Origin: Cupriavidus sp. WKF15
GTDB taxonomy: Bacteria > Pseudomonadota > Gammaproteobacteria > Burkholderiales > Burkholderiaceae
Assembly: GCF_029278605.1 (NCBI RefSeq)
Contig: NZ_CP119573.1
Location: forward strand, 1,550,001-1,614,000
Direction: 5' to 3'
DNA: 64,000 bases
The position numbers and the translations under genes are program-made. Below the pieces are notes generated by a model. That model was given only the letters and a program-made list of their open reading frames with translations. It did no database searches and was not told the DNA's origin. Numbering within the stretch: position 1 is the stretch's first letter; each line of letters starts with the position of its first letter. Positions 5,588-24,287 of this stretch are shown here, in pieces.

Positions 5588-6826
5588 ATGCAGAAGGTTC
5601 TCGCTGTGTTTGGGACGCGTCCCGAAGCGATCAAGATGGCACCGCTGATGCGGCGGCTGCGAAGTTCACCGGCATTCGATCTGCGGGTATGCGTGACGGG
5701 CCAGCACCGGCAGCTCCTCGACCCGGTGCTGCGCCTGTTCAGGATTGTCCCGGATTTTGACCTCAACGTGATCTGTAAAGGCCAGAGCCTTTCCGACATC
5801 ACAACCAGGGTGCTGGTCGGCGTACAAACGGTCATTGACGAGTTTATGCCCGACACCATGCTCGTTCACGGCGATACCACCACGACACTGGCCGCCACGC
5901 TGGCGGCCTTCTATCGGAGCATCCCCGTCGGCCATGTCGAGGCGGGCTTGCGAACTGGCGACATGAGCGCGCCCTGGCCCGAGGAGATGAACCGGCGCGT
6001 AACCGACATCATGGCCACGTGGCATTTCGCTCCGACGCAGCAGGCGCACGACACGCTGCTGCGCGAAGGTGCCAACCCGATCCGCGTCAGGATGACCGGC
6101 AATACAGGCATTGACGCCCTGCTCGAAGTCAAGCAACAGATCGACGCCGATGCCCAAGTGCGCACGCGCCTGGCAAACGGCTTTCCGTTCCTTGATGCAT
6201 CCCGGCGACTGGTGCTGGTGACCGGGCATCGACGCGAGAACTTTGGTGCACCATTCGAGCGATTCTGTGCGGCGCTGCGCATGCTTGCCGATCGGAACAA
6301 GGACATCCAGATCGTCTACCCGGTCCACCTGAATCCCAGGGTGCGCGAGCCGGTCAATGCCATCTTGAGCAAGCATCCCCGGATCCACCTGATCGAGCCG
6401 CAGGACTATCAGCCGTTCGTCTTCCTGATGTCGCTCGCCTATCTGATCGTGACGGACTCCGGCGGGATCCAGGAGGAAGCACCGGCTCTCGGCAAGCCGG
6501 TCGTGGTGACGCGCGAGACTACGGAGCGCCCTGAAGCGGTGGCTGCCGGTACGGCGCGGCTGGTTGGGACCGATACGGAACGAATTGTCATTGCTGTCGA
6601 GCTGCTGCTGCGCGATCGCGAGGTGTATTCCTGCATGTCGCGTGCCCACAATCCGTTTGGAGACGGGCGAGCGAGCGAGCGCATTGTCAGTGCCCTGCAG
6701 CTACCTGTCAAAACGATGTGTACCGCCGCTTTCGCTCGCGCGATGCACGCGGAACCGGATACGGATATGGATCCGCGCGCCATTCAGCTACCCGGCCACA
6801 CCGCAATCTGGAGGAAGCAATCATGA
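5588..6826 (+). CDS. wecB: UDP-N-acetylglucosamine 2-epimerase (non-hydrolysing)
   Basis: It interconverts UDP-GlcNAc and UDP-ManNAc in the cytoplasm. The family motifs run in order: '[14 protein letters not shown]' near the N-terminus, '[13 protein letters not shown]', '[11 protein letters not shown]', 'EEMNRRVTD', '[10 protein letters not shown]' (catalytic His region), 'VYPVHLNP', '[12 protein letters not shown]' and 'RETTERPEA'. The ATG at 5588 is chosen because homology starts there. At 412 residues it is ~35 longer than usual because of an unconserved C-terminal tail, which overlaps the next start (ATGA at 6823-6826). It opens the polysaccharide cluster and would supply UDP-ManNAc. No UDP-ManNAc dehydrogenase is present, so the product is likely used as the neutral sugar. 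Confidence 0.93.
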
Positions 6827-7152
6827 AATCTGCAACAACCCTGGCGGCGGCCACCCTATTGCTTGCCGGCGTGTGGACCGCGGGGCCGGCACGCGCTCAG
6901 TTGTCGGCGGAGGCGGCAGCGGTAATGTCCGGGCCGATTCTCTATCTCCCCGCGAGTCCGTCCGATCCCGGAGGCCTCAACGGCTACGACCACAACCGGC
7001 AGTTCGACTTCGCTATCGAAGCAGACAAGCCCGGCAAGAACAAGGCAGAGCGGGACAAGGTGTTGAAGAAGCCCAAGAAGGCTGTGGCTGGCCCCAAGGT
7101 CAAAGCGGGGACCTACACGCTGGGGGCGGCGCCAGGCCAGACCAAGAAATGA
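6823..7152 (+). CDS. Small exported basic protein of the polysaccharide cluster
   Basis: This is 109 residues with a clear Sec signal peptide ('[19 protein letters not shown]', cleavage probably after 'ARA' before Gln26). The mature part is about 84 residues, has one segment rich in Pro, Gly and Tyr ('[18 protein letters not shown]') and a Lys-rich second half ('[18 protein letters not shown]'). I recognise no family. Its ATG overlaps the wecB stop (ATGA), so it is translationally coupled to wecB. A basic periplasmic peptide could bind an anionic or partly deacetylated polymer, but that is inference only. Confidence 0.7.
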
Positions 7153-7260
7153 TCAGCCTGAGCCGCCCGGCGTCGAGCGGATGTTCGACGATGTCCTGCA
7201 CCTCTGACAGATGGGTGTCGACCCTATCGGGCCTCAGTTTTCCCCCTTCGCGTTCTGGAG

Positions 7261-9087
7261 ATGATCGTGTTCCATAAACTCCGTTTCATGCTGCAGCGAC
7301 TCAGTGCCCTGGTATTGATGGTCCTGTCTCTGGTCGCGGCTGGCTCCGTCCTGGCCGCCACCAACCAGATTGCGCTGGTGGTACCCGACAACTACACGCC
7401 GTCCGATCCGCGCATTACCGCGTGGCTCGACGCCGCACGCGAGGAGGGTCTTCAGATCACGTTGGTCACCGACTCGCAAGTGCTTCAGGGCGTCACCCCT
7501 GCGCAGTACCCGGGCATGATCCTGCCCGATACGGTACACCCCAATGCCAGCGACGGCATGGTGACCGCGATTGAGACCTATGCCAATCAAGGCGGCCATG
7601 TGATGCTCGTCTACGACTTCGGCGCGTTGACGACAACCGGCTTCTACGCGTCGCAGCAGAGTCGGTTCAGCAATCTGGCCGGCGTCAGCTACGTTCTCTA
7701 CGACCAGTTGGGCGGCAACATGATCGGCCTCGGTCCGATCACCGGCCTGAGCAGCACGCTGCGCGCCGTCCAGGTCCCTCCCGGCAAGTCCATGGCATGG
7801 ACGACCACATCGTCAAGCGACCCCGTGGAGGGAGTCTCCGGCTACGTATATGGCTTCCTGACCTACCCTAGCTTCGTCACGCAGGGGGCCTACTCGGGCA
7901 CCGCCTTCCTGACTGCCCCCAATTTCGGACTGGTTGCCGGTCTGCGTACTTTCGGTTCGGGTCAGGTGCTCTTCGTCAATCTTCCGCTGACCTACCTGAA
8001 AGGGCAGACCGACGGCATGCCGATGCACGGATTCGTGCGCTACTTCGGCGAAACGATGATGAACATGCCACGGCTATCGGCACAGCCCAAGGGCATCGGC
8101 GGCCTGGTGCTCAACATGCACTTCTGCGCCCGGGACCAGATCTGGCCGGCGTACAAGCTCAAGAGCTGGGGCATCTTCAACAATGGTCCGTTCTCCATCG
8201 TGATAACCGCGGGGCCGGACCAGGTCAACTTCGGCGATGGCCTGGGCATCAACCTTTCCCAGAACACCGGTGCCAGGCAGCTGGTCAGCTATCTGCTGAG
8301 CAAGGGACACCATGTCGGCGACCATGGCGGCTGGATACACGACTACTGGGGAGCAAATGCCAGCGAGACGAACCAGTCGACCTTCCAGCAGTACCTGGTG
8401 CTCAACAAGCAGAGCGTTCAGGGGGTGACCGGCGTACCGACAACCGAGTACGCAGCGCCAGAGGGAAATACGCCGCAATGGTCGATCGACTGGATGGAAG
8501 CCAACGGTGACACGGGATACTACTTCGTCGGCCATACCGGCATGCCGCCCACGCGCAGCTACCGCAACGGTGCCTTGCTCAATCAGACCATTCGCGCGTT
8601 CCCGGTCATGCCATTCGGCGCGAACGCGACGTTCGAGGAGTTTGAGGAGGCCAGCATACCAACGAGCAGCATCAGCGCCTGGTACAGCCAGCTGACGGAC
8701 TTCGTGGTGAAGAACCGAACCAGTCGACTGATCTACATGCATCCACTCGGCGCCATTGACTACCAGGGCGTGCTCAATGGCATCTTTTCCTATGCCGGCT
8801 CGCTCAAGTCGCAAGGGCTGTTCAACTGGTACACCATGAACGACCTGGCCGTATTTGCCCAGCGGCGCCAGCAAACCACCTGGCAGGCCAACGATATCGG
8901 CAATGCCTGGAGCTTCCAGGCCAGCAACCCCGCGGGCCTGACCGACCAGACCTGGGTGCTGCCCAAGATTGCCTACACGCAGCCGGTAGTGACACAAGGC
9001 GCTGCAAGCGTGACGTGGGACTCGACCAACTGGCTGGTCACGGCAGGTGCGGGCAACTCGCTGGCTTTTACAAGCGGCAAGCAATGA
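7261..9087 (+). CDS. Exported two-domain protein with divergent NodB-like deacetylase domain
   Basis: This 608-residue protein has an N-terminal signal segment (hydrophobic to about residue 33, 'VLAA'). Residues ~35-260 look like a Rossmann/class-I amidotransferase-like domain ('IALVVPDNYTPSDPRITAW', 'GGHVMLVYDFG'). Residues ~285-560 keep the order of polysaccharide-deacetylase motifs in divergent form: 'GPFSIVITAGPDQVNFGDG' where TFDDG is usual, 'GHHVGDHGGWIHD' in place of the His-x3-His metal site, 'AAPEGNTPQW' for motif 3 and 'IYMHPLGAIDY' for motif 4. It probably deacetylates or otherwise trims an N-acetylated polymer in the periplasm, with the role of PgaB or PelA. The reaction is inferred. 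It lies between wecB and the synthase. Confidence 0.65.
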   Translation: MIVFHKLRFMLQRLSALVLMVLSLVAAGSVLAATNQIALVVPDNYTPSDPRITAWLDAAREEGLQITLVTDSQVLQGVTPAQYPGMILPDTVHPNASDGMVTAIETYANQGGHVMLVYDFGALTTTGFYASQQSRFSNLAGVSYVLYDQLGGNMIGLGPITGLSSTLRAVQVPPGKSMAWTTTSSSDPVEGVSGYVYGFLTYPSFVTQGAYSGTAFLTAPNFGLVAGLRTFGSGQVLFVNLPLTYLKGQTDGMPMHGFVRYFGETMMNMPRLSAQPKGIGGLVLNMHFCARDQIWPAYKLKSWGIFNNGPFSIVITAGPDQVNFGDGLGINLSQNTGARQLVSYLLSKGHHVGDHGGWIHDYWGANASETNQSTFQQYLVLNKQSVQGVTGVPTTEYAAPEGNTPQWSIDWMEANGDTGYYFVGHTGMPPTRSYRNGALLNQTIRAFPVMPFGANATFEEFEEASIPTSSISAWYSQLTDFVVKNRTSRLIYMHPLGAIDYQGVLNGIFSYAGSLKSQGLFNWYTMNDLAVFAQRRQQTTWQANDIGNAWSFQASNPAGLTDQTWVLPKIAYTQPVVTQGAASVTWDSTNWLVTAGAGNSLAFTSGKQ

Positions 9088-9169
9088 CGCCTGGCAACGT
9101 ATCCGCGTTCATCCACCGGACGGCTGTGCCACGCCGTCCGGGCGTTTCGCAGCACTCATTGGATCATTC

Positions 9170-10711
9170 ATGTCTCGATCGCTTCGCACCATTCTTTTGC
9201 TCGGCGCGCTGTTTTCAGGGATAGGCTTTGCTCTGCCGAGCGCCGCGGAGAAGCTCATCGTGCACACTGTCATAGTGAGAAGGGCACCGCACGAGATCGC
9301 GCGCAACCATAGGGCTCCGGAGCGATCGATGCAGGAGGCTGCGGAGGTGGCGGCCGTGCGACTGCCACCAGGCAGTTACAAGGACGAAGAGGAGCTCGAC
9401 GAGCCCCCACCCGTTGTCTTCGACAAGGCGGAGACCGGCGCGAGCGCGGGTCAGGTCATTGTCTCCACGCTGACTGGGTTGCTGGCCATCATCATGTCGC
9501 TCATTGTGCTCTACGCAGTCCGGCACTATGTCTTTACGCTGAACCGGTTGTTTGGCAGGCAGAGGCATCCCTATCTCGATATCGATGTCGCGGAATGGCC
9601 ATCGCTGACGGTCCTGGTCGCTGCGCACAACGAGGAAGTGGTGATCGCCGGCTCTCTGCAATGCCTGCTGCGGGTGGACTACCCGGCGGACCGGCTGACC
9701 ATCATGCCCGTGAATGACCGCTCTAGTGACCGGACTCGCGAGATCATCGACGAGATTGCCGCGCGGCATCCCGGCCGGATCGTTCCGTTCCACCGGGTCA
9801 GCGGCAAGCCGGGCAAGGCGGCCGCGCTCAAGGATGCCAGCGAGACCGTGAGCACGGAAATCATTGTTGTCTTCGATGCCGATTACCTGCCCCCGTTCGG
9901 CTTGCTCAAGCAGCTGGTGGCGCCGTTCTTCGATCCTGAAGTCGGTGCCACGATGGGTCGGGTAGTGCCACTGAATCTTGGCAGCAACCTGCTTACCAGA
10001 CTGCTCGATATGGAGCGTTCCGGTGGTTACCAGGTGGACCAGCAGGCGCGCATGAACCTCTGGCTCGTGCCTCAGTACGGCGGCACGGTGGGCGGGGTCC
10101 GGCTGCGGGCACTGCGCAGTGTGGGGGGCTGGCACGATGACGTGCTTGCCGAGGATACCGATCTTACGTACCGGCTCATGCTGGGAAATTGGAAGACGGT
10201 CTATCAGAACTGGGCCGAATGCTACGAAGAGGTACCCGAAGCATGGCCAGTGCGGATCCGGCAGATCATGCGCTGGACCAAGGGCCACAACCAGTCGTTC
10301 TACCGTCACGCTCGTGGCGTGGTGACATGCCAGGGGCACGGACTGTTTGAAAGACTGGACGGCGTGGCGCTGCTCGCCATCTACACGATGGCACCGGTCA
10401 TGCTGTTGGGCTGGGCGCTGACAATTTTCCTGTTCTATACGAGCGGCTTCCCGCTTCATAGCACGCTCATCCTGCTCGCACTGATGTCCTATGGCACCCT
10501 GGGCAACTTCGCCGCATTCTTCGAAATTGCAGCGGCGGTTCACCTCGACGGTGGCTGTGAAAGAGTCCGGCTGCTGCCGCTGAACTATTTCGGCTTCCTT
10601 GTCAGTGCCTTCACGATCGCAAGAGCCACGTCCGATCAGGTGATCGGGGGTGTCCTGCTTCAACGCGAGCTGCATTGGGACAAGACGAAACGCTACCGAC
10701 AAGGGAGCTGA
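9170..10711 (+). CDS. Processive family 2 glycosyltransferase (polysaccharide synthase)
   Basis: This 513-residue inner-membrane enzyme has an N-terminal signal-like helix (residues 1-26), a periplasmic linker, one membrane helix ('VSTLTGLLAIIMSLIVLYAV'), a cytoplasmic GT-A domain and two or three C-terminal helices. Catalytic motifs are all visible: 'VLVAAHNEE', 'VNDRSSDRT', the DxD as 'VFDADY', 'EDTDLTYRL' (catalytic Asp of the ED motif) and 'QIMRW', the Q-x2-RW acceptor-channel motif of processive synthases such as PgaC, HasA and BcsA. The ATG at 9170 follows 'GGATCATTC' and begins a good signal helix. Together with wecB this suggests a polymer of N-acetylhexosamine. The N-terminal periplasmic segment is unusual for PgaC-like enzymes. 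Confidence 0.88.
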   Translation: MSRSLRTILLLGALFSGIGFALPSAAEKLIVHTVIVRRAPHEIARNHRAPERSMQEAAEVAAVRLPPGSYKDEEELDEPPPVVFDKAETGASAGQVIVSTLTGLLAIIMSLIVLYAVRHYVFTLNRLFGRQRHPYLDIDVAEWPSLTVLVAAHNEEVVIAGSLQCLLRVDYPADRLTIMPVNDRSSDRTREIIDEIAARHPGRIVPFHRVSGKPGKAAALKDASETVSTEIIVVFDADYLPPFGLLKQLVAPFFDPEVGATMGRVVPLNLGSNLLTRLLDMERSGGYQVDQQARMNLWLVPQYGGTVGGVRLRALRSVGGWHDDVLAEDTDLTYRLMLGNWKTVYQNWAECYEEVPEAWPVRIRQIMRWTKGHNQSFYRHARGVVTCQGHGLFERLDGVALLAIYTMAPVMLLGWALTIFLFYTSGFPLHSTLILLALMSYGTLGNFAAFFEIAAAVHLDGGCERVRLLPLNYFGFLVSAFTIARATSDQVIGGVLLQRELHWDKTKRYRQGS

Positions 10712-10712
10712 A

Positions 10713-11798
10713 ATGTGGCTGATCCTTCTGACTGTATTGACCCTGCTGGCCTTCAGTCTGCCCCTGGTGCCGGCATTCGCGGAATGGCGGCGGCCGCGTG
10801 ACATTTTGCCGCTCGCGATCGATGGCGAGCATACCCTGGATGTCTGTGCCGTGGCAGCGGAGTTCCGGGCAATGCTGGACACGAAGGCAGGCGCCGCGGC
10901 CAGGGCAGGGGCGTTTCGGGATCAGGTGCTGAAAGTCGGCAGTGCCTGGACACCGACATCCGCGGAGCATGCGCTGCGGCGCTGCGATCGCGTCGTGATT
11001 GCCCAGGGAGATCTGGAGTTGCCGGATCACTTCACCTTCAGGCGTGAGTTGTACGCGAAGCGCAATCTCAGCAGCGGGGTATCGAACTGCCTGCTGGCTG
11101 TCCTGGCCGAAGGCGGCCTGCTCCTGCGCCAGGGTAGCGTGCTGCAGCATTGGGCGCACGCGCGCCATGCGCGTGTCGAACCGCACTGCAGCCTTGAAGG
11201 GCCCTTGTCCGCCTGGCAGGAGATCCTCATTGAAGATGGCTGCGAGTTCACCGCGTTGACGGCAAGCGCGATCCGCTTTGGCAATCCGGACAATCGGGAT
11301 GGCGGCAAGAGTGCGGTTGCCGGTGGCGCGCGCCCACCCCCGCTGGAGCAGACAGAGCGAGCAGGCGCGACGTCATCCGATGAAGGCAGCCACCGGATTA
11401 TCGAGCATGATTACTTGCTGGCGCCTGGCATCCGCCACGACGGAGACCTGATTGTCCACGGCGACCTGAGGATCGGAACCGCCGCGCGGATTACGGGGAG
11501 CGTCAAGGCAACCGGCTCGATCCGGCTGGAGGACCATGTCCGGATCGATGGCGCGCTCGTGTGCGGTAGCGCGCTTTTCGTCGCACCCTGCTGCGCCATC
11601 ATGGGCCCCGTTATCGCGGAAGAATCGGTCAGCATTGCGGAAAACTGCCTGATAGGCCTCTTGTCGAGGCCAACCTCGTTAGCCGCTCCGGAAGTGTGTG
11701 TGTGGCGTGGCACGACGGTGCATGGCGCGGTGAGCGCAATTGTCGGAGGGAGGGCAATGCCGGCCGCCATGGCTGCGCCTTGCGACGAACATGACTAG
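10713..11798 (+). CDS. Membrane-anchored bactofilin-like protein
   Basis: This 361-residue protein has one N-terminal membrane helix ('MWLILLTVLTLLAFSLPLVP'), a mixed domain of ~190 residues and a C-terminal region (about 250-340) with the repetitive turns of a right-handed beta-helix ('LIVHGDLRIGTAARITG', 'SIRLEDHVRIDGALVCG', 'LIGLLSR'). This pattern is seen in bactofilins/polymer-forming cytoskeletal proteins. The start is 1 bp after the stop of the synthase gene and its stop overlaps the next gene, so it is coupled to both. I infer a scaffold that positions the synthase. Whether the beta-helix is cytoplasmic or periplasmic cannot be told. The middle domain is not recognised. Confidence 0.65.
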   Translation: MWLILLTVLTLLAFSLPLVPAFAEWRRPRDILPLAIDGEHTLDVCAVAAEFRAMLDTKAGAAARAGAFRDQVLKVGSAWTPTSAEHALRRCDRVVIAQGDLELPDHFTFRRELYAKRNLSSGVSNCLLAVLAEGGLLLRQGSVLQHWAHARHARVEPHCSLEGPLSAWQEILIEDGCEFTALTASAIRFGNPDNRDGGKSAVAGGARPPPLEQTERAGATSSDEGSHRIIEHDYLLAPGIRHDGDLIVHGDLRIGTAARITGSVKATGSIRLEDHVRIDGALVCGSALFVAPCCAIMGPVIAEESVSIAENCLIGLLSRPTSLAAPEVCVWRGTTVHGAVSAIVGGRAMPAAMAAPCDEHD

Positions 11799-12795
11799 AA
11801 TCCGCGGCCTTCTTCTGATGTGTGCGCTCCTTCTATGCGTGAACGGCCACGCTTCGGAACTGCGTCTCACCGGCTACCAGCGGTCCGACGGTGCGATCAC
11901 GACCTACTATGGCGGGGACACGATCGATCCCTACTTTGCCTCGAAAGCGTTGCTGTCCGCGTCGGACATCGGCCTGGACGCACGCGCCGCCGCACGCCGG
12001 TGGATCCGCTGGTTGTTGCCAAGACAGCTCAAGAGCGGGCAGTTCGAGCGCTATTGCCTGGTCCGCGGCCGCTTCGTGGGGTGTCGTCAGGCGGACGCGG
12101 ACGATGCCCTGCTTGCCACCTGGATGGAGTTGCTGGTGCGGTTTTCACCGCCAGAGGGCATGCCCCCCGCGTGGAAGCGAAGCTTCGATATGTCAAGCCG
12201 CTATCTCGACGGTCTGCGCGACAAACGGCTCGGTGTCTTCAATGTCGCCTCCGACCTGCCGGTTGCACTGATGATGGACAACGCGGAGATCTCCAGCGCC
12301 TTCAAGGCCGTAGCCAGATACGCGCAGGCCACCCATGACAAGGAAGCCGCCGAGCAGTGGACTCTCAAGGCGCAGCAGCTCGACCGCGACATCCTGCAAG
12401 TGTTCTGGCAGCCGGGCCGCGGCTTCGCCGTCAGCACCCAGGCGCGCGACAAGACCGAGTTCTATCCGGACACGGTGGCGCAGATATTTCCTATCCTGTC
12501 TGGAATCGTTCCCGACAACGAGCGGGCTTCCGCGCGTTACCACGCCTGGATGAAGCAACACCGCTTTGTCTGGCTGCAGATGCCCGAGACGGATTATCCG
12601 TGGGGCCTGGTGGCTCTGGTGGCTGACAAGATGGGTGACGCGGACGCGATCACCTGCTGGCGCGTGCGCGCGACCCAGTTCAGGCACGGGACGCACTGGA
12701 ACGTCCTGGAGGAGGCCTTGTATCAAGCGTTTGAATCCAGACTTACCCCGGAGCAGGCCGTGGCGCCCGTGCCGGGGGGCTTGCGATGTCGATAG
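11791..12795 (+). CDS. Exported six-hairpin (alpha/alpha)6 glycosidase-like protein
   Basis: This 334-residue protein has a signal peptide ('MTRIRGLLLMCALLLCVNGHA', cleavage near residue 21). The mature chain is all-helical in pattern with regularly spaced Trp/Tyr/Asp clusters: 'YYGGDTIDPYFASKAL', 'DADDALLATWMELLV', 'DNAEISSAFKAVARYA', 'EFYPDTVAQIFPILSG' and 'ETDYPWGLVALVADKM'. This is the layout of (alpha/alpha)6-barrel glycoside hydrolases or lyases such as GH8, GH105 or GH88-like. The start overlaps the bactofilin-like gene by 8 bp. Polysaccharide operons commonly encode such a hydrolase to clear or size the polymer in the periplasm (BcsZ, AlgL, PslG). Family and catalytic residues are not assigned. 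Confidence 0.6.
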   Translation: MTRIRGLLLMCALLLCVNGHASELRLTGYQRSDGAITTYYGGDTIDPYFASKALLSASDIGLDARAAARRWIRWLLPRQLKSGQFERYCLVRGRFVGCRQADADDALLATWMELLVRFSPPEGMPPAWKRSFDMSSRYLDGLRDKRLGVFNVASDLPVALMMDNAEISSAFKAVARYAQATHDKEAAEQWTLKAQQLDRDILQVFWQPGRGFAVSTQARDKTEFYPDTVAQIFPILSGIVPDNERASARYHAWMKQHRFVWLQMPETDYPWGLVALVADKMGDADAITCWRVRATQFRHGTHWNVLEEALYQAFESRLTPEQAVAPVPGGLRCR

Positions 12796-12879
12796 CCACT
12801 TCTTGCCGGTAATCCACAACAATCAAGCAGGGCTCCCAATGCGTCGAGCCGAAGGCATTGGGGTCATGACCACCGAAGA

Positions 12880-13743
12880 GTGATGACCATATGCGCCACA
12901 GAAACCGATTGGGAAAACCCGCCCACCGCAGCATTGCAAGCTGGCTTCCGCATGCTCGGCATGCTGATGGCGGTGGCGTCATCGGATGCCCTCGCCCAGG
13001 CGGAAGCCACGGCGCCGCGCGTCTTTGCACCGCTGCTGACGGGCTTCATCGAGGGCGGCCTCGGTCACGCCAACCTGACCGGCGACAACGCGAACTGGAA
13101 CGACCAGTACGTCCGTGTCGGCGCACATCTGACGCCCAACGACTACGTGACCGGCGAGGTCAGCCATCAGAGTCACTTCGGCGACCAGGTACCTTCTTTG
13201 GCCTGGGCTACACGCGGACTTTCAACGAGGACTGGTACGCATTCCTCAGTGGAGGCGCAGGCGCGGGCGGTTTTTTTTTGCCGCAATACCGGATTGACGG
13301 GATGATCTTTCGCAAGCTGCTGCCCAAGCGGAACCTGGTGGCGAGCCTGGGCTTCACCTACTACCGCGCCAAGGAAGTCTATGACGACAAGACGCTGCTG
13401 GTGGGCCTGATCTACTACTTCGACCAGCCCTTCATCGTCCACGTTCTCGGACGATTCAACCGCAGCGACCCGGGCAATGTCCGATCCAACCGTGGCGTGA
13501 TTGCGTTGACATATGGCCGGGACAAGGACCAATACATCACGTGGAAGTACGACGGGGGAGATGAATCAGCTGACTGGCGAACAGACCTTGCTGCGCGATT
13601 TCACAAGCCACGACGTCTCGTTGACCTGGCGTAAATGGATCACTAAGACGTGGGGGTTCAATTTGCGCGCGACCTACTATGAAAACCCGTCCTACAAGCG
13701 AAAGCAAGCGGAGGCCGGTATCTTCGTTGAGTTCCGATCATGA
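12880..13743 (+). pseudogene. yaiO: YaiO-family outer-membrane beta-barrel protein, frameshifted
   Basis: The product is readable only by changing frame twice. Frame A gives the signal region and 'GFIEGGLGHANLTGDNANW' up to 'SHFGDQ' (near 13188). A second frame continues 'GTFFGLGYTRTFNEDWYAF' to 'QYITWKYDG' (near 13550). Frame A resumes with 'EMNQLTGEQTLLRDF' to the barrel-type C-terminus ending in Phe-Arg-Ser. Both shifts fall at G-runs: one G missing in 'CAGGTACC', one extra in 'GACGGGGGAG'. Alternating amphipathic strands and aromatic girdles fit YaiO-like export barrels. A third shift near the start is possible, because a basic n-region sits in the other frame. The stop overlaps the next gene (ATGA). 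Either the gene is dead or these are sequencing indels. Confidence 0.7.
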
Positions 13744-14546
13744 CGCATCCATCCAGCCAGGCATCGGCTGCACCCGACAAAGGCGAGTCTCTGGGCCGTA
13801 CAGTGATCAGTGTGGCGCGGCACCGCTCACTGGATCGCCTCAATCTATCGGCACCGACCCTCGCCGGTATCGTGCTGGTGCCATTGCTGTTCAACGCGGT
13901 CGAATGGTTGCTGCATAACTATCTCAGTGCCGGCTGGACAGGCGTCTTCGCTTTTTGGCTCGGGAAACTCGAGATCCAGGGCGTGGTGGCCGAACGCCTG
14001 ACGAGCGTGGCCGGATTCGATCTGCCGTTGCCGCACCTTGACGCGATGGCGGCGCTGCCCGATCTGGAGACATGGTGCATGACCGCGGCGCTGACGATTG
14101 CCGCTGGCCTGCTCACGCTGCGCCTGCCTGCCAGGATGCTGCCGCTGCGCTACTTCCTCCTGTTTGCCCTCTTTATCCAGTTAACGGCGCTCGCCTTCTT
14201 TGCCGTGGTACCCGAGCAGTTCCCTTACACCGTGAGCAGCTATATCGACAACGGCATGAAGACTGCTGTCGGCTTCCTCGTGGTCCTGCCGTGGGCGCAT
14301 GCGCTGGTCTACTATGTCTTCGACTTCTCATGGTCACGGAAGATAGCGCTGACAGCGATGACGCTGGCCTTTATTGTCGTGGCCGTCCCGTTGCAGCTAT
14401 TGCTCCATGTCTACGTCGTGCAGAAATTTTCGTTGTTGTGGCTTCCTGTGCTGTCGTTTGTGTTTGGTCCTACGCTGATTGTTTTCGGCTGTATCGCACT
14501 GTATGGATGGGGGATGAGCTGGAAGCGATTGAGAGGACGAAAGTGA
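13740..14546 (+). CDS. Polytopic inner-membrane protein of the polysaccharide cluster
   Basis: This 268-residue protein has about six predicted membrane helices, for example 'LAGIVLVPLLFNAVEWLL', 'YFLLFALFIQLTALAFFAV', 'TAVGFLVVLPWAHALVYYV', 'MTLAFIVVAVPLQLLLHVY' and 'LSFVFGPTLIVFGCIALYG'. I recognise no named family. Its ATG overlaps the stop of the barrel gene (ATGA), so it was translationally coupled to it. By position it may be an accessory subunit of the synthase or an export permease. A role as exopolysaccharide membrane partner is inference from context. Confidence 0.65.
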   Translation: MTHPSSQASAAPDKGESLGRTVISVARHRSLDRLNLSAPTLAGIVLVPLLFNAVEWLLHNYLSAGWTGVFAFWLGKLEIQGVVAERLTSVAGFDLPLPHLDAMAALPDLETWCMTAALTIAAGLLTLRLPARMLPLRYFLLFALFIQLTALAFFAVVPEQFPYTVSSYIDNGMKTAVGFLVVLPWAHALVYYVFDFSWSRKIALTAMTLAFIVVAVPLQLLLHVYVVQKFSLLWLPVLSFVFGPTLIVFGCIALYGWGMSWKRLRGRK

Positions 14547-14732
14547 TTGCGGAACAGATGACTTTGCTTTCCGTTCAGTGCAGAGATCGGTTGCCGGCTT
14601 GAGTGAGGTAGTCGTGGGAATCCGCACCGGATCCCCGGGGCGTGCAGGCGCTGATCGCGGCGCCGTTGATGGTGCTTGGCGGCGGGCACCCGACGGCATC
14701 GAACCCAGCGTGTCGCGCCGCGGGAGTCAATC

Positions 14733-16216
14733 ATGTGTGGCATCGTGGGCGCGATCTCGTCGCGCAATATCGTCCCGGTTTTGGTAGAGGGTCTGCGCCG
14801 GCTGGAATACCGCGGCTACGATTCCTGCGGTCTGGCCGTGGTGCTCAAAGGCGCGCTCGAGCGAGCCCGTACCGTCTCGCGCGTGGCCGTGCTCGACGCG
14901 CAGAGCCAGGCGTGCGGCCTGGCCGGACAGGTCGGCGTGGCGCACACGCGCTGGGCCACCCACGGCAAGCCCGACACCGTCAACGCCCACCCGCACATCT
15001 CGGGCAAGACCATCGCACTGGTGCACAACGGCATCATCGAAAACTACGAGTCCTTGCGCGAGGAGCTGCGCGCGCGCTTGGTTACATCTTCGAGTCGCAG
15101 ACCGACACCGAAGTGGTGGCCCACCTGGTCCACCAGGGCCTACACTTGGCCGGACAGCGCCACGCGCGGCGACCCGTTCGCCTCGGTGCGCGCGATCACC
15201 AAGCGCCTGCACGGCGCCTACGCCATCGCGGTGGTCTCGAAAGACCAGCCCGATCGCCTGGTCGGCGCGCGCTCGGGCTCGCCGCTGGTGGTGGCGCTCG
15301 GCGAGAACGAATCCTTCCTGGCCTCCGATGCCCTGGCCGTGGCCGGTACCGCCAATCGCGTGATCTACCTCGAAGAGGGGGACGTGATGGAACTCACGCT
15401 CGACAGCGTGACGATCCGTGACGCCTGCGACCACGCCGTCGAGCGCGAGGTGCGCGAGGTGAAAGCGTACGCCGCCGCGGTGGAACTGGGGTCATACCGC
15501 CACTTCATGCAGAAGGAGATCTTCGAGCAGCCACGCGCGTTGAGCGATACGATCAATGGCATAGACGTCATCAGCCCGGACATGTTTGGCGAATGCACGG
15601 CGCAGACCTTCGCGCGGGTCGACAGCGTGCTTGTCCTGGCCTGCGGCACCAGCTACTACTCGGGCTGCACCGCCAAGTACTGGCTCGAATCGATCGCCAG
15701 GTCCCGACCCAGGTGGAGGTGGCCAGCGAGTATCGCTATCGCGAGACCGTGCCCAATCCGAACGCGCTGGTGATCGTGATCTCCCAGTCCGGCGAGACCG
15801 CGGACACACTGGCCGCGCTGCGCCACGCCAGGGAACTGGGCCACGCGCACACGCTGGCTATCTGCAATGTCGCGACAAGCGCCATGGTGCGCGAAGTCGG
15901 AATGTGCTTCCTGACGCGGGCCGGCATCGAGATAGGCGTAGCCTCGACCAAGGCCTTCACGACGCAGCTTGCCGCGCTGTATATGCTGACGCTGGCGCTC
16001 GCCAAGGTGCGGGGGCTGCTCCCTGAGCCGGCCGAGGCCACGGCCCTGGCCAACCTGCGACGCCTTCCGGATGCGCTGGGGGGCGTGCTGGCCCTGGAGC
16101 CGCAGATCATTGCCTGGGCCGAGGACTTTGCAAAACGGATAGAAAGCCATCGGCAAAAGGGTGGCGGGGCTGGGTCGCTGGTCCACCCGAGCATAGGCAT
16201 TTCGCGGCGTGGTTGA
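14733..16216 (+). pseudogene. glmS: Glutamine-fructose-6-phosphate aminotransferase, frameshifted and 3'-truncated
   Basis: The intact enzyme makes glucosamine-6-phosphate for UDP-GlcNAc synthesis. The N-terminal glutaminase starts correctly ('[10 protein letters not shown]', catalytic Cys2) and keeps '[10 protein letters not shown]'. Between about 15078 and 15165 the sense moves to another frame ('[16 protein letters not shown]') and then returns ('[19 protein letters not shown]'). A third shift near 15702 (one G missing in 'GCCAGGTCCC') leads into '[15 protein letters not shown]' and '[13 protein letters not shown]', the sugar-isomerase domain. Homology stops near 16145 ('AEDFAKRIE'), about 110 residues before the normal end, so the second SIS domain is lost. 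The copy cannot be functional as written. Its presence fits amino-sugar supply for the cluster. Confidence 0.85.
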
Positions 16217-16895: not shown

Positions 16896-17095
16896 GAATT
16901 CCGGCGCGCGCGGTCTGTCGATGAGCGACGCGCTCTGCCCCATAGAGACTCGCTGGCATCGATGCCTCCTTGGGCCTTCACACCGAAGTCCGCTGCCAGG
17001 GAGCAGCGCTGACGCTGCAATTGTCATTCACCCGATTCCCACCAAGGCCTTGCCAACGAATAGCTCAAGGGCGGGTCTCACTCAGGAGATGCAAG

Positions 17096-17665
17096 ATGGC
17101 TCAGTGGACAGCAGAACAATGCACGAAAGCGCAGTTGGCGGGCCTTGAAGTCCTCGTCGGACTCACCAACAAGGCCCTTGAGGGCTTTGAAAAGGTGATG
17201 GAGTTGAACCTGCAAACAATGAAGACGAGCCTGGCGCAGACCCGGGAGGGCGTCATGAAAGCCCTCTCAGTCCAGAATCCGCAAGAACTCGTCGAATTGC
17301 AAATCGAATTATTTCAGCCAGCAACCGACAAGGCATTGGCGTATCGCCGTCAGCTGTTTGACATTCTGGCCGCCACACGGGCTGACTTCGACAAGGTGGT
17401 CGAAGTTCAATACACGGCAGGCAAGCAGGGGCTGCAGGACTTCCTCGAAAAGGTGGAGAACAGCGCCCCATCAGGGTCAACGGCTCCGCTGGCCGCTTGG
17501 CAGGAGGCCCTAAAGGCGACCACTATGTTCTATGAGTCGGTACAGTCGACCGCAAGGCAGACCGTGGAGGTAGCCGAGAACAGTCTCAACACGGCTGCGG
17601 CGGCAGCCTCAAAAGGCGCGCGACATCGCGTAGCGCAGGCGTCTGCGTCAGCTGCGGCGAAGTAG
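17096..17665 (+). CDS. phaP: Phasin family protein (PHB granule surface)
   Basis: This is 189 residues, the usual phasin_2 length. The ATG at 17096 sits 8 bp after 'AGGAG'. The protein is nearly all amphipathic helix, with the family pattern 'LAGLEVLVGLTNKALEGFEKVMELNLQT' at residues 14-41 (first part shown in the family as a conserved helix), 'PQELVELQIELFQPA' and a Lys/Ala-rich tail of the PhaP1 type ('ASKGARHRVAQASASAAAK'). Phasins coat polyhydroxybutyrate granules and control their number. The gene is followed by phaB (130 bp gap, same strand), so the two probably form one PHB unit. Confidence 0.9.
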   Translation: MAQWTAEQCTKAQLAGLEVLVGLTNKALEGFEKVMELNLQTMKTSLAQTREGVMKALSVQNPQELVELQIELFQPATDKALAYRRQLFDILAATRADFDKVVEVQYTAGKQGLQDFLEKVENSAPSGSTAPLAAWQEALKATTMFYESVQSTARQTVEVAENSLNTAAAAASKGARHRVAQASASAAAK

Positions 17666-17795
17666 TTCCGCTTTGGCCCCCAGTTGGCACATTCACGGCT
17701 GGGGGGCGCCAAATTCTCGGAGATGCTGGGTCTCAGTGAGCAGCGCTAGCCGTGGCTCATCCGTGCGGTTATACCAAACACAGAGGATTGGACAC

Positions 17796-18539
17796 ATGAC
17801 GAAGAAGCTTGCCGTAGTCACAGGCGGGATGGGCGGTATCGGTGAGGCTATCAGCGTCCGGCTGCATCACGCAGGTTATACGGTGGCTGTCACGCATTCC
17901 CCGGCTAATAGCGGCGTCGCGAGCTGGCTGGGAAAGATGGAGGAAAGCGGGCGTAGGTTCCACGCCTATCCTGTCGACGTCGCTGACTATGACTCGTGCC
18001 AAGAATGCATTGCCAAGGTTCGGGCGGAGCTGGGCGCTGTCGACATTCTGGTGAACAATGCTGGCATCACGCGGGATGCCAGCTTCAAGAAGCTGGACAA
18101 AATCAACTGGGATGCGGTCATGCGCACCAACCTCGACTCGGTGTTTAACATGACCAAGCCTGTGTGCGACGAGATGGTGAAGCGCGGCTGGGGACGAATC
18201 ATCAACGTGTCGTCCATCATTGGTTCCAAGGGCGGCTTTGGCCAATCCAACTACGCGGCAGCCAAAGCGGGCATGCACGGCTTCACGAAGTCGCTGGCGC
18301 TCGAGGTGGCCAAGAGCGGCGTGACGGTCAATACGGTATCGCCTGGCTTTATTGCCACCAAAATGGTGACCGCTGTGCCACAAGAAATACTCGATACAAA
18401 AGTCATCCCTCAAATCCCAGTAGGTCGCCTGGGGAGGCCTGAGGAGGTTGCTGCGTTGATTGCGTATTTGTGCTCGGAGGAGGCCGCCTTCGTGACCGGG
18501 GCGAACATTGCCATCAACGGTGGGCAGCACATGCAGTGA
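17796..18539 (+). CDS. phaB: Acetoacetyl-CoA reductase (NADPH), PhaB
   Basis: This 247-residue short-chain dehydrogenase reduces acetoacetyl-CoA to (R)-3-hydroxybutyryl-CoA for PHB synthesis. The cofactor loop is 'VTGGMGGIGEAI' (about residues 8-19), followed by 'NNAGITRD', the catalytic Ser in 'INVSSIIGSKGGFGQ', and 'YAAAKAG' (Tyr-x3-Lys). The PhaB-specific stretches 'GQSNYAAAKAGMHGFTKSLA' and 'TVSPGFIATKMV' are present, and the C-terminus 'NGGQHMQ' resembles PhaB paralogues. No phaA or phaC lies nearby, so this is an additional copy rather than the main operon. The ATG at 17796 follows 'AGAGGA'. Confidence 0.92.
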   Translation: MTKKLAVVTGGMGGIGEAISVRLHHAGYTVAVTHSPANSGVASWLGKMEESGRRFHAYPVDVADYDSCQECIAKVRAELGAVDILVNNAGITRDASFKKLDKINWDAVMRTNLDSVFNMTKPVCDEMVKRGWGRIINVSSIIGSKGGFGQSNYAAAKAGMHGFTKSLALEVAKSGVTVNTVSPGFIATKMVTAVPQEILDTKVIPQIPVGRLGRPEEVAALIAYLCSEEAAFVTGANIAINGGQHMQ

Positions 18540-18837
18540 GGTCTGATGTGCCGTCCAGCGCCCCACACAGGGCCGGAGCGCTGGATATATAGTCTGCATT
18601 GACCGGAAGGAAGCGGTGCAGCCTTCCTGCGGGCAGCTAGGCGTGGTGGGTATCTCTGTCCTATGTCAACCCAATGACGGAGGCGCCAAAGCAACACAAT
18701 AGTTAACTCTGATATTAGAGTTATCTAATTCGCCTTTAAATTGAGCGCTGTAGGACCCACTACCACCAGCGTTACCACCCTCGGCAACGCGGGTTCTTTT
18801 TTGTAGGCGGCCGGTCAGCGACCCCGCACAAAATGCA
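18540..18837. other. Gap downstream of phaB
   Basis: No gene is supported. Near 18768-18803 a weak stem ('ACCC' with 'GGGT' around 'TCGGCAACGC') is followed by 'TCTTTTTTG', which could terminate the phaB transcript. Bases 18700-18745 are AT-rich. Confidence 0.35.
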
Positions 18838-19020
18838 TCAGAGCGGATTCTCGACGCTCACCGGCTCCGCGCGGTACACCGACCAGAAATAGTGCGAATT
18901 TCTATGGTGCCGGGCTCGCATCCGCTTTGCGAAGAAACGCACCCGTCCTGCATCTCCAGCGTCTATTTCGACCTCTTGATGAAGCTCCTGCGTTGATGCC
19001 GCAGGTGGCAGCAGATTCAC
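18838..19020 (-). pseudogene. Unassigned coding-looking remnant
   Basis: On the minus strand the stretch ending at 18838 reads as ordered protein sequence ('FAKRMRARHHRNSHYFWS', then 'VYRAEPVSVENPL' and stop) but has no start of its own and is fused in frame to sequence that is noise beside the IS21 fragment. I do not recognise the family. It looks like the C-terminal end of a gene whose 5' part was replaced. Confidence 0.3.
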
Positions 19021-19037
19021 GACGGCCGAAACATACT

Positions 19038-19121
19038 GCCCAGTTGCCGCGCGATCTCCGTTTTGGACAGGCCTTGCTCCAGATAGTGACGTAGTAGCAC
19101 GCGTTGTTCCCTCCCGTACAT
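19038..19121 (-). mobile_element. IS21-family transposase (istA) N-terminal fragment
   Basis: The minus strand from 19121 encodes a 28-residue stretch with the typical IstA start: 'REQRVLLRHYLEQGLSKTEI' followed by 'ARQLG', the N-terminal helix-turn-helix of IS21-type transposases. Homology stops after that. No DDE domain, istB or terminal repeats were found, so only a scrap of the element remains. Confidence 0.6.
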
Positions 19122-19242
19122 AGGCGGCTCCAAGGGCTCTTTCGGAGCTGCCACCTTGCCCGAGTGTGCAAATTTCGTCCGCCAGTACTGTGCAATTTAC
19201 GTCCGCCACCCACAACCGGTGAGGCGAAGTCTTCAGGGCGTT

Positions 19243-20436
19243 CTACCGTTCTACCCGCGCGCCATCCTGCGGCGTGTTGGCGGCGCCTGCCTCGGTCGTG
19301 TCGTACACGATGAACTGGTTCTTGCCCGCACGCTTGGCCATGTAGAGCGCCGCATCCGCCTGGCGGAAGAGTTCGTGCTGAGTAGTGCAATGGCGGGTGG
19401 TGTTCAGGGCAATGCCTACTGACGCGCTGCACGCGACCCGCTGGCCGTCCATAAGGTACGGTTCGGACATGGCCGAGACTATTGTTTGAGCGATACGCTC
19501 CGCCGTCTGTATCGAGGAGATGCCCTGGGCAATCACGGCAAATTCATCGCCACCAAATCGGGCCACAGCGTCAGTGGCACGGACCGCTGATTGGATGCGT
19601 ACGGCACACATTTTGAGCAGGGCGTCGCCAGCGGCATGCCCATGGCTGTCATTCACGGCCTTGAAGCCGTCGAGGTCGATAAGGAATAGCGCCAACTCAC
19701 GTTCGGCAGCACGGGAGTTTGTCAGTGCGGATGCCATGCGGCGGTCAAATCCCTTGCGATTCAGTAGCCGAGTCAAATGGTCGTGACCCACATGCCGCTG
19801 GACGCCGCCGATGATGAGTACCATCAAGAAGGTCGAGAAAAGGCCGACGCTCAAGGTCCATGCCAGGCGCGCTATGATTAGCTTGCGGCGCGTGGTGTTG
19901 ACGTCCTCGACATAGAGTTTTGCGGCTACCACCCAGTCCCAGCCAGGCAATGGACGCGCGGCGGAAATTTTTTCGGCCAGCGTGCGGTCCACCAGCCTGT
20001 CAAACGCGGCGACATGGCCCGTGTCATTGGTCCGTGCCAACGCTGCCAGTTCCACATAAGGGCGACGCCCCACGGCATCGGTGAGGTTCTCGACCGATTT
20101 GCCTACCAGCCTGGGCTTGCCAGGATTCAGCAACAGAACGTAGTCCCTAGTGAATGCATACACATAGCCGCTGCCGTGAAATCGCATCAGTTCCCATTGT
20201 GTGAGCACTGCCTTTTTGGCGTCGTCCTCAGTCAGTTCGCCTCTCGCGACGCGCTCCTGGTACGACTCCGCGATACGTATGGCGACGTCCAGTATATTGT
20301 GCAGACCTTGTCGGCGTTCGGTAAGTACTCGCTGGTGGGCATCAATGGCGCTTTCAACGCTTACGGCGAGTAAGCCGGTCCACATGAGCGCGAGTGCTAG
20401 CCACAGCTTTGTACCGAACGATATTCTTTGATGCAT
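19243..20436 (-). CDS. Membrane diguanylate cyclase with single Cache sensor
   Basis: This 397-residue protein starts at the ATG at 20436; a longer frame to 20601 lacks signal logic. An N-terminal membrane helix ('LWLALALMWTGLLAVS'), a periplasmic single-Cache domain of chemoreceptor type ('WELMRFHGSGYVYAF', 'GWDWVVAAKLYVEDV'), a second helix ('TLSVGLFSTFLMVLIIGGV') and a GGDEF domain follow in order. The active site is the intact 'RFGGDEFAV', and 'RATD' five residues before it is an intact product-inhibition I-site. It should make c-di-GMP in response to a small extracellular ligand. The nearby exopolysaccharide cluster is a plausible output, but no link is visible. It is monocistronic; IS21 debris lies downstream. 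Confidence 0.92.
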   Translation of the reverse strand: MHQRISFGTKLWLALALMWTGLLAVSVESAIDAHQRVLTERRQGLHNILDVAIRIAESYQERVARGELTEDDAKKAVLTQWELMRFHGSGYVYAFTRDYVLLLNPGKPRLVGKSVENLTDAVGRRPYVELAALARTNDTGHVAAFDRLVDRTLAEKISAARPLPGWDWVVAAKLYVEDVNTTRRKLIIARLAWTLSVGLFSTFLMVLIIGGVQRHVGHDHLTRLLNRKGFDRRMASALTNSRAAERELALFLIDLDGFKAVNDSHGHAAGDALLKMCAVRIQSAVRATDAVARFGGDEFAVIAQGISSIQTAERIAQTIVSAMSEPYLMDGQRVACSASVGIALNTTRHCTTQHELFRQADAALYMAKRAGKNQFIVYDTTEAGAANTPQDGARVER

Positions 20437-20687
20437 GTCACGCGTTGGCCTGAGCCGACCTTGCGCGGCGGCGCGCACGTGTTGGCTACAGGCATCTCCT
20501 CTTGTGCCAACGCAGCCTGTGCAACAGTATGTTGGCTTTCTATTTTTTGGGCGCCAGCCGATAGGCCATGTATGCCGGGCGTTCGAAAAGAGCGCTGTCA
20601 TTTAGTCATGCTTGCAGTCAAATATAAACCCCACCAGTGTGGGGCGATGCCGCTGATGACCTGTTGCCTTGGGCAACCTGGGACTCG

Positions 20688-20936: not shown

Positions 20937-21443
20937 CTATAGGGCAGGGCCAACACCTTTGTCGTGGGCCAAATGCTTTGTGGTGTTCTTGGCCATTTCG
21001 TCGGACGCGCCGGCGGGCGTCGAAAAGGCCGATTGCCATGCTGCTAGGATAGATTCGCTTCCTATGGGCGCGTTCTTCGCGAGGTTTTCGAATAACTCCT
21101 GTGTATCGCGTTGACATTGCTGGAGGTGCGCTTGGGCGGCCGTCGAGAATTCGCCTTGAATGCTCGACAGGATTTCGGAGACCTGCCGGCTGTACAACGC
21201 CGCCTTTTCGGCTATGGGCTGCGTCAGGTGCACAGGCAGGGCAACCCACTCTTGCTGGTCGTTGGCCGAAAGCATCTTGCCCAGGATTTCGCGATTTTCG
21301 GCGAAGGTTGATTTGACTGTTTGCAGATTTAGCTCAGTCAGCTTTTCGATGCCTTCGAAGGCTATGGTCGCCAGACCAAGGAGCCTTTCCACGCCCGCTT
21401 TCTGCGCGGAGATGGATTGTTCGGGGATAGGAGTGCTCATCAC
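20937..21443 (-). CDS. Phasin family protein, second copy
   Basis: This 168-residue helical protein has the phasin_2 pattern: '[20 protein letters not shown]', '[17 protein letters not shown]', '[20 protein letters not shown]' and a late '[15 protein letters not shown]'. It is clearly a paralogue of the phasin at 17096 (same helix order) but diverged and with a different tail. The start is the ATG at 21443 or the next one at 21440. It is monocistronic on the minus strand, opposite to the other PHB genes. Its presence with phaB suggests PHB granule management on this replicon. Confidence 0.85.
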
Positions 21444-23381: not shown

Positions 23382-24287
23382 TTATGTCGATGGGTTTTCT
23401 CCTTGTGATGGGGCAGTGTATGCCCGGTGTAGCGCCGGATTCATGCCATTGACGGGAAGCTTTTCAAACTCCTGCGGAGACCGATATCCCAGTGCGCTGT
23501 GCAGGCGATGCGAGTTGTACCAACCCTCGATCCAGGTGAACAATGCCTGACGGGCGTCGTCGTGCGTGGCGAAGCGCGAACGCATCAGCAGCTCGCATTC
23601 GAGCGTTGCGAAGAAGGACTCGCACATGGCGTTGTCGTAGGCATCGCCCACCGAGCCCATCGAAGGCTGAACGCCGGCCTCGCGGCAACGTCGCCCGAAG
23701 GCAACAGACGTGTATTGGCAGCCCTGGTCCGAATGGTGAATCACTGCGCTGGGATGTCGCTGCGCCAGCGCCATGTCCAGCGCTTGCAGCATCAGTGCGG
23801 TGCGCAGATGACTACCCATGGCCCAACCTACGATGCGCCGGCTGTACACGTCCAACACGACAGCCAGATAGTAAAAGCCGGCAACGGTCGGAATGTATGT
23901 CGCATCGGCGACCCACAGCTGATTTGGCGCATCGGCAGAGAAGTGTCGCTGCACCAGATCGGGCGCGGGTCTGCCCGCTGGCGCACGGTGGGTGGTGCAA
24001 ATGAAGCGCGGCCGGCAAGCCCCGCGCAGGCCGGCCTCACGCATCAGACGCGCCACGCGCTTGCGCCCGACGTGGATACCTTGGCGCAGCAGCATGGCAT
24101 GCACACGTGGCATCCCATAGGTACCGCGCGAGCGGGCGTGAATCTCACGGATTTGCGCGAGCAACAGCTTGTCACTCACGGCATGAGCGCTCGGACGTCG
24201 TTCCATCCATGCATGGAAGCCGCTGCGCGAGACCTTAAGCAGCCGCGCCATGGTGGACAGCGGAAAGCGGTCCTGATTTGCCTTCAT
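23382..24287 (-). CDS. IS3-family transposase OrfB (DDE integrase domain)
   Basis: 301 residues. An HTH_21-type N-terminus ('MARLLKVSRSGFHAWMERRP', 'YGMPRVHAML') is followed by the retroviral-type integrase core. Catalytic residues are visible: Asp in 'WVADATYIPT', Asp in 'HHSDQGCQYTS' and Glu in 'DNAMCESFFATLECELL'. The C-terminus has 'YNSHRLHSALGYRSPQEF'. The ATG overlaps the orfA stop (ATGA); in this family the active product is usually an OrfAB fusion made by -1 frameshifting, and an 'AAAAG' slip-like sequence occurs in the orfA end. The frame is intact, so the element may be active. Confidence 0.93.
   Translation of the reverse strand: MKANQDRFPLSTMARLLKVSRSGFHAWMERRPSAHAVSDKLLLAQIREIHARSRGTYGMPRVHAMLLRQGIHVGRKRVARLMREAGLRGACRPRFICTTHRAPAGRPAPDLVQRHFSADAPNQLWVADATYIPTVAGFYYLAVVLDVYSRRIVGWAMGSHLRTALMLQALDMALAQRHPSAVIHHSDQGCQYTSVAFGRRCREAGVQPSMGSVGDAYDNAMCESFFATLECELLMRSRFATHDDARQALFTWIEGWYNSHRLHSALGYRSPQEFEKLPVNGMNPALHRAYTAPSQGENPST

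Follow-up and report, generated by a model that had tools for sequence, protein, structure and literature searches.

Poly-N-acetylglucosamine (PNAG) is an amino-sugar polymer with periplasmic deacetylation. Five synthase-dependent exopolysaccharides were counted in 2020 in the available part of PMC7112194. According to the available text of PMC7229062, many bacterial homologues of Agd3 (CE18/CBM87), Burkholderia included, lie in or near uncharacterised exopolysaccharide operons, in which a GH114 gene is highly consistent. Here we describe an operon in a 64,000-nucleotide stretch of Cupriavidus sp. WKF15 (C2:1550001-1614000 of a three-contig, 7.38-Mb genome; hereafter the window). We propose, with a probability of roughly 0.72, that this operon directs the synthesis of a synthase-dependent, partly N-deacetylated amino-sugar exopolysaccharide that is unnamed in the searched literature. 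No paper on this gene set was found by title or abstract in a partial literature collection, and the portions of the Cupriavidus metallidurans genome paper at hand (PMC2864759) describe pel and other clusters, not this operon.

On the plus strand, the operon comprises wecB, the genes for a 109-residue protein and a 608-residue deacetylase-like protein, a family 2 glycosyltransferase (GT2) gene, the genes for a beta-helix (bactofilin-domain) protein and a six-hairpin glycosidase-like protein, yaiO, and the gene for a 268-residue membrane protein, followed by pieces of glmS (Table 1). A preliminary description of the window held that all genes face one direction and are mostly coupled, and the open reading frames (ORFs) bear this out. 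ATGA overlaps join wecB to the 109-residue protein gene (at 6823) and the last yaiO piece to the 268-residue protein gene (at 13740), a 1-bp gap separates the GT2 gene (ending at 10711) from the beta-helix gene (from 10713), and the latter overlaps the glycosidase-like gene by 8 bp at 11791. Across the locus, the Pfam and NCBIfam matches were Epimerase_2/wecB, GT2, Bactofilin, MGH1-like_GH, YaiO and GATase, and neither the 608- nor the 268-residue protein matched a family of these collections at E 0.001. The families listed in the preliminary description were present, but its functional list left out two conserved parts, the 109-residue protein and the 268-residue membrane protein.

The GT2 residues D183, DxD 236-238, ED 328-329 and QxxRW 365-369, counted from the start at 9170, lie in invariant columns of 10 sequences, and the C-terminal hydrophobic segments indicate a membrane GT2 with processive-type motifs. 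A QxxRW-type GT2 with such segments is typical of processive synthases. Assignment of the GT2 to a named exopolysaccharide locus had been set as grounds against a distinct system; the protein matched 12 NCBIfam models of synthase type but reached the cut-off of none. An amino sugar in the polymer is pointed to by the presence of wecB and, in locus group g11, of glmS. The genome contains four wecB genes, three of which lie in the three operon copies described below. It had also been argued that the polymer is neutral or partly deacetylated, as no UDP-N-acetylmannosamine (UDP-ManNAc) dehydrogenase gene is present; none lies in the operon, but the argument is weak and does not settle a neutral polymer, because three clear UDP-sugar-dehydrogenase-type genes exist elsewhere in the genome. 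The GT2 proteins of the Cupriavidus-type loci (type I, below) have an N-terminal extension of approximately 70-90 residues, which is lacking in L010, g24 and L016.

Judged by sequence comparison, the gene set is a conserved operon and more than a chance association, because these families also cluster in relatives. Among 38 locus rows, three were the same DNA as named loci, leaving 35 distinct loci. Seven families (wecB, GT2, bactofilin-domain protein, six-hairpin glycosidase-like protein, YaiO, multi-spanning protein and divergent deacetylase) occurred together in 27 of these 35 in four gene orders, a fraction that is not a genome-wide rate since the loci were chosen for matching the GT2 or the deacetylase. 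The preliminary description had named a gene order found nowhere else as grounds for giving up a distinct system; the order is kept elsewhere. Type I (Cupriavidus), wecB-small protein-deacetylase-GT2-bactofilin-glycosidase-YaiO-membrane protein, comprises 13 loci, 12 of them complete and one (L012) cut by a contig end. Among carriers of the type I operon are the C. necator strains A5-1 and UYPR2.512, the latter with a wecB that looks split. Type II, wecB-GT2-bactofilin-glycosidase-deacetylase-YaiO-membrane protein, was complete in 6/6 loci. Type III, GT2-bactofilin-YaiO-membrane protein-deacetylase-glycosidase with wecB at one side, comprises eight loci, two of g25 and six of g11, in which wecB is divergent and glmS follows the glycosidase gene; the bactofilin of L131 was detected in one of two locus comparisons only. 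Type IV, GT2-bactofilin-glycosidase-wecB-YaiO-membrane protein-deacetylase, is represented by L154 and, without the deacetylase, by L016.

In a GT2 tree obtained by a quick search without bootstrap and with a very distant E. coli outgroup, each of types I, II and III was set apart by a branch with 99-100% support in the Shimodaira-Hasegawa-like approximate likelihood ratio test, and the two type IV rows stood on long branches with unsure placement. The named relatives nearest to the window GT2 are Cupriavidus. The deacetylase profile matched 32/299 genomes of the family, 6/349 of the order (one weakly) and 5/398 of the phylum (one weakly), in samples that overlap. The family of the 268-residue protein occurred in 4/398 phylum genomes, the same four with strong deacetylase matches. 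In a plasmid collection, the deacetylase was found in one record, Cupriavidus sp. P-10, at two places. The flanks of L130, a g11 locus, are approximately 80-90% identical to Burkholderia cenocepacia and B. arboris records (L177 and L178), and we call g11 Burkholderia for this reason. No match to the operon proteins was found in the corresponding B. cenocepacia and B. arboris stretch, where other genes lie between the flanks. The operon thus seems, on this alignment, to be variably present at one site.

Table 1. Features of the operon and of the mobile elements downstream of it (window positions)
Feature	Position	Strand	Basis or remark
wecB, non-hydrolysing UDP-N-acetylglucosamine (UDP-GlcNAc) 2-epimerase, 412 residues	5588-6826	+	TIGR00236, 482.9 bits (cut-off 210.15)
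109-residue protein, signal-like N terminus	6823-7152	+	family is a domain inside the deacetylase of other genera
Divergent polysaccharide deacetylase-like protein, 608 residues	7261-9087	+	weak Polysacc_deac_1 profile match and low-confidence fold model
GT2 synthase	9170-10711	+	Pfam GT2 families and invariant motif residues
Bactofilin-domain protein, 361 residues: N-terminal hydrophobic helix, beta domain, C-terminal bactofilin domain	10713-11798	+	
Six-hairpin glycosidase-like protein, 334 residues	11791-12795	+	MGH1-like_GH, 31 bits (cut-off 27)
yaiO outer-membrane barrel gene, two frameshifts	12952-13734	+	three pieces against the intact sister gene
Multi-spanning membrane protein, 268 residues	13740-14546	+	five hydrophobic segments
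glmS remnant, frameshifted, without approximately the last 145 residues	14733-16135	+	matches residues 1-323 and 316-460 of 605
IS3-type integrase gene	23382-24287	-	
IS256 transposase gene	34609-35901	+	94% DNA identity to a B. cenocepacia plasmid copy

Three operon copies are present in the genome. A GT2 search revealed two strong paralogues, 74% (C2:2040920, locus L009) and 63% (C2:333457, locus L010) identical to that of the window. In L009, the full set of eight genes is present in the window order; L010 has seven genes in a different order, the gene for the 109-residue protein not being found there at E 1e-4; the operon frames of both copies are open. The window and L009 proteins are 56-82% identical, with ratios of nonsynonymous to synonymous substitution rates (dN/dS) of 0.11-0.27 for seven genes, which are rough because dS is 0.8-2.0 and near saturation. 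The yaiO pieces (12952-13185, 13188-13568 and 13558-13734) are 71-80% identical to the intact sister gene, and the three ORFs that hold them all exceed the YaiO cut-off (TIGR04390, 32 bits) with 33.5, 101.8 and 48.3 bits. Since the dN/dS of these pieces is 0.11-0.19, the comparison suggests that the frameshifts postdate most of the divergence between the two copies. The window copy is probably a diverged duplicate in decay, because its yaiO has two frameshifts, and its sister L009 is intact.

A stronger version of this view, compatible with the exopolysaccharide reading and in our estimate slightly better than an even bet, is that the window copy is dead, a relic of a duplicated operon in which yaiO and glmS are broken, near insertion sequences (IS). 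Its three frameshifts fall in two genes, whereas the operon genes of L009 and L010 showed no frameshift; its GT2 has the longer end branch (0.36 vs 0.19 for L009), and an IS3-type integrase and an IS256 transposase gene lie further downstream. However, the seven other window genes have open frames, and their comparison points to purifying selection, though this mostly reflects older time, and base-calling errors could account for the frameshifts. The stretch between the two mobile-element genes has few long ORFs and a lower G+C content, and no repeats of at least 40 bases were reported in window positions 1-36000. Another operon copy is perhaps damaged: in L015, from a C. necator strain, wecB lies in two overlapping pieces (6097-7208). 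Just downstream of the intact sister operon, L009 contains an 814-residue gene (17500-19944), which we take from its motifs to be cellulose-synthase-like.

The preliminary description had counted glmS as part of the system, which did not hold for Cupriavidus. The window remnant is truncated and carries one frameshift, covering only residues 1-460 of 605, and we rejected glmS as part of the Cupriavidus-type set, since it adjoins the operon in none of the remaining 12 distinct loci of type I (L012 ends before that place). In g11, glmS is a regular neighbour, lying beside the operon in 6/6 operon loci. Measured by identity to Burkholderia-type glmS, transfer of such a copy does not explain the remnant, because its pieces are less identical (59-60%) than the genome's own complete glmS (69%). 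Beyond the last operon gene by approximately 4.7 kb lies a gene for an sCache-GGDEF diguanylate cyclase (19243-20601, minus strand); exopolysaccharides are often controlled by cyclic di-GMP. Two phasin genes and a short-chain dehydrogenase gene, presumably for an acetoacetyl-CoA reductase, also lie beside the operon (16970-18539 and 20937-21443).

That the 608-residue protein is a deacetylase, as first guessed, is upheld weakly by structure comparison, but its presumed active site deviates from the motifs of CE4, CE18 and CE21. Polysacc_deac_1 gave weak matches to 9/9 family members (E 0.004 for the window protein, 1.8e-6 at best), and a family profile searched against sequences of solved structures returned nothing credible, with no Agd3 match at E up to 1. 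By fold matches of a low-confidence model, the protein probably consists of a Rossmann-like N-terminal domain, a candidate NodB/CE4-like barrel and a beta-rich C-terminal domain, the three-domain layout of PelA, Agd3 and NDST1. H287, H360 and H494 are invariant in 35/35 deacetylases. In motif 1, assigned by sequence pattern, Asp-Asp has become Asn/Asp-x-His, position 285 being Asn in 32/35 and Asp in 3/35. In motif 2, HxxxH has become HxxxxH, with the first His (H355) kept in 33/35 and replaced by Gln in 2/35, and the second kept in 35/35. The loss of the catalytic Asp-Asp, together with the replacement of H355 by Gln in two proteins, means on this alignment that the deacetylase-like protein could be inactive or work differently. 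The ligands appear to have changed in L131 and L132 (g25), which have Asp at position 285 and Gln in place of the first motif-2 His. These replacements of the presumed base, the presumed metal-binding Asp and, in two proteins, the first motif-2 His, together with a CE4 pseudoenzyme among the fold matches of the model, would fit a glycan-binding pseudoenzyme that guides the chain. We regard this as unlikely, since a protein that only binds glycan would hardly seem to require three invariant His residues.

Our analysis also bears on the 109-residue protein. The interval corresponding to window residues K176-V196 spans 118-138 residues in 13/13 g11 and g25 deacetylases; L153 has 75 residues there, one L154 protein (of two) has 138, and the remaining 20 proteins have 15-21. 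All 15 inserts (15/35 deacetylases) match one or other of eight separate small proteins, with best matches of 34-58 bits, against a maximum of 25.4 bits for 200 shuffles of the L009 small protein. The 13 Cupriavidus deacetylases have no insert, and the small gene lies just upstream. The remaining seven have no insert, and tblastn detected no adjoining small gene at E 1e-4; as six of the inserts also escaped this threshold, a diverged small gene may be present. In a tree built without the insert columns by a quick search, the separate state formed one group (98%), nested among the inserted ones given a root assumed towards the rows with neither insert nor small gene. This nesting suggests that the 109-residue protein is probably a domain split off the deacetylase in Cupriavidus, a point new here, and that the two proteins probably act as partners; the natural fission thus tells which two proteins probably work together. 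The proteins of the deacetylase-only loci (L128, L133, L135, L136, L138 and L153) carry an insert. L154 contains, besides the operon, a second deacetylase with an insert and a second glycosidase-like gene.

The bactofilin-like assignment of the 361-residue protein holds well by structure comparison. Its Bactofilin family score was 22.2 bits, below the cut-off of 27.9, and Foldseek gave no match to the model under E 0.001; a second comparison with VIA-align found a bactofilin match with the beta-helix domain. The operon would tie a bactofilin to polymer synthesis. The glycosidase profile gave nothing against sequences of solved structures, and the 268-residue protein gave no Pfam match at E up to 10, other members of its family matching only at E 1.4 or worse. 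The YaiO barrel gene is conserved across loci. In the mechanism that we propose, WecB would supply UDP-ManNAc or a mix of UDP-ManNAc and UDP-GlcNAc, which the membrane GT2 would polymerise while pushing the chain through the inner membrane, with the membrane-tethered bactofilin and the multi-spanning protein as its putative partners there. The predicted periplasmic three-domain deacetylase, helped by the split-off domain, would remove some N-acetyl groups, the six-hairpin glycosidase would trim or clear chains in the periplasm, and the YaiO barrel would serve the outer-membrane step.

Several points weigh against this proposal. The deacetylase model has a mean predicted local distance difference test score of 52.4, its PelA match has a root mean square deviation of 7.8, and the motif replacements described above could leave the protein inactive or working differently. 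MGH1-like_GH was matched by only one of the nine glycosidase-like members scanned. The YaiO model is 230 positions long, which we judge small for a polymer pore. Besides the way in which the loci were chosen, in 6/35 loci the deacetylase stands apart from the other families, none of which lies within approximately 8-9 kb. The small barrel is also consistent with a short glycan that decorates the envelope, with no secreted polymer, YaiO and the bactofilin anchoring or placing the enzymes; such a glycan needs no more than a single glycosyltransferase and a single epimerase, and six-hairpin glycosidases often act on short glycans. This alternative is rather improbable, since a QxxRW-type GT2 with C-terminal hydrophobic segments points to a processive synthase, and a deacetylase, a hydrolase and a barrel together make up the synthase-dependent pattern. 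The deacetylase-like and glycosidase-like genes, which encode predicted modifying enzymes, lie in the same operon, and their linkage is conserved. We favor a synthase-dependent exopolysaccharide.

Comparison with named polymer systems agrees with the earlier statement that the set matches no named pathway, as PNAG, Pel, cellulose and Agd3-type systems did not account for it. The nearest synthase model is that of PNAG (pgaABCD), but the GT2 missed its cut-off widely (TIGR03937 PgaC/IcaA, 116.9 against 422.3 bits), and 0/13 genome matches reached it; YaiO and the bactofilin presumably stand where PNAG has PgaA, PgaB and PgaD. For cellulose, the GT2 scored 52.6 bits against a TIGR03030 (CelA/BcsA) cut-off of 699.1. 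PelG (PF16933) and GH114 (PF03537) each had 0 matches in the genome; PelG was chosen as the Pel test because the GH114 model may miss PelA-type hydrolases. A divergent member of PNAG, Pel, cellulose or alginate systems is thus very improbable despite the PgaC/IcaA proximity and the PelA-like layout of the deacetylase model, given these scores, with alginate not searched for, and given that, to our knowledge, wecB, YaiO and bactofilin are not parts of those systems.

Among deacetylases, PelA (CE21) likewise joins its deacetylase domain to additional N-terminal and beta-rich domains in a single chain, and residues 280-847 of PelA 9cgy align with model residues 32-608. The window chain shows no hydrolase domain, however, and D528/D530 and H600-x3-H604, given for PelA in the available part of PMC12022489, are replaced in it. 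Agd3 shares the three-domain layout, but its D377/D378 and H510-x3-H514 are not conserved in the window protein. The best Foldseek match was NDST1 (heparan sulfate N-deacetylase), which combines a Rossmann-like N-terminal domain with a deacetylase, as far as the consulted part of PMC10864358 describes; unlike the window locus, which has no sulfotransferase, NDST1 acts through D319, D320, H389, H393 and H529. The E. coli yaiO-yaiX-yaiP-yaiS genes bring YaiO together with a GT2 and a putative acyltransferase in neighbouring positions, and the GT2 profile match has a probability of 98.2%. In contrast, YaiP lies on a very long branch, and the K-12 stretch examined has no wecB, glycosidase or multi-spanning gene; YaiS, considered as a deacetylase counterpart, has no similarity to the window deacetylase. 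The bacterial Agd3-homologue operons, as far as the available text of PMC7229062 describes them, may touch relatives of this set.

A conserved operon present in three copies in one genome would add another synthase-dependent exopolysaccharide to the five counted in the available part of PMC7112194. We tentatively suggest, as a possibility short of an even chance, that it represents a further class beside those five: a ManNAc or ManNAc/GlcNAc polymer that would be made with a bactofilin in the synthase complex and partly N-deacetylated by an enzyme whose metal site is rewired (Asp to His, HxxxxH) and which would act together with a secreted subunit split off from it.

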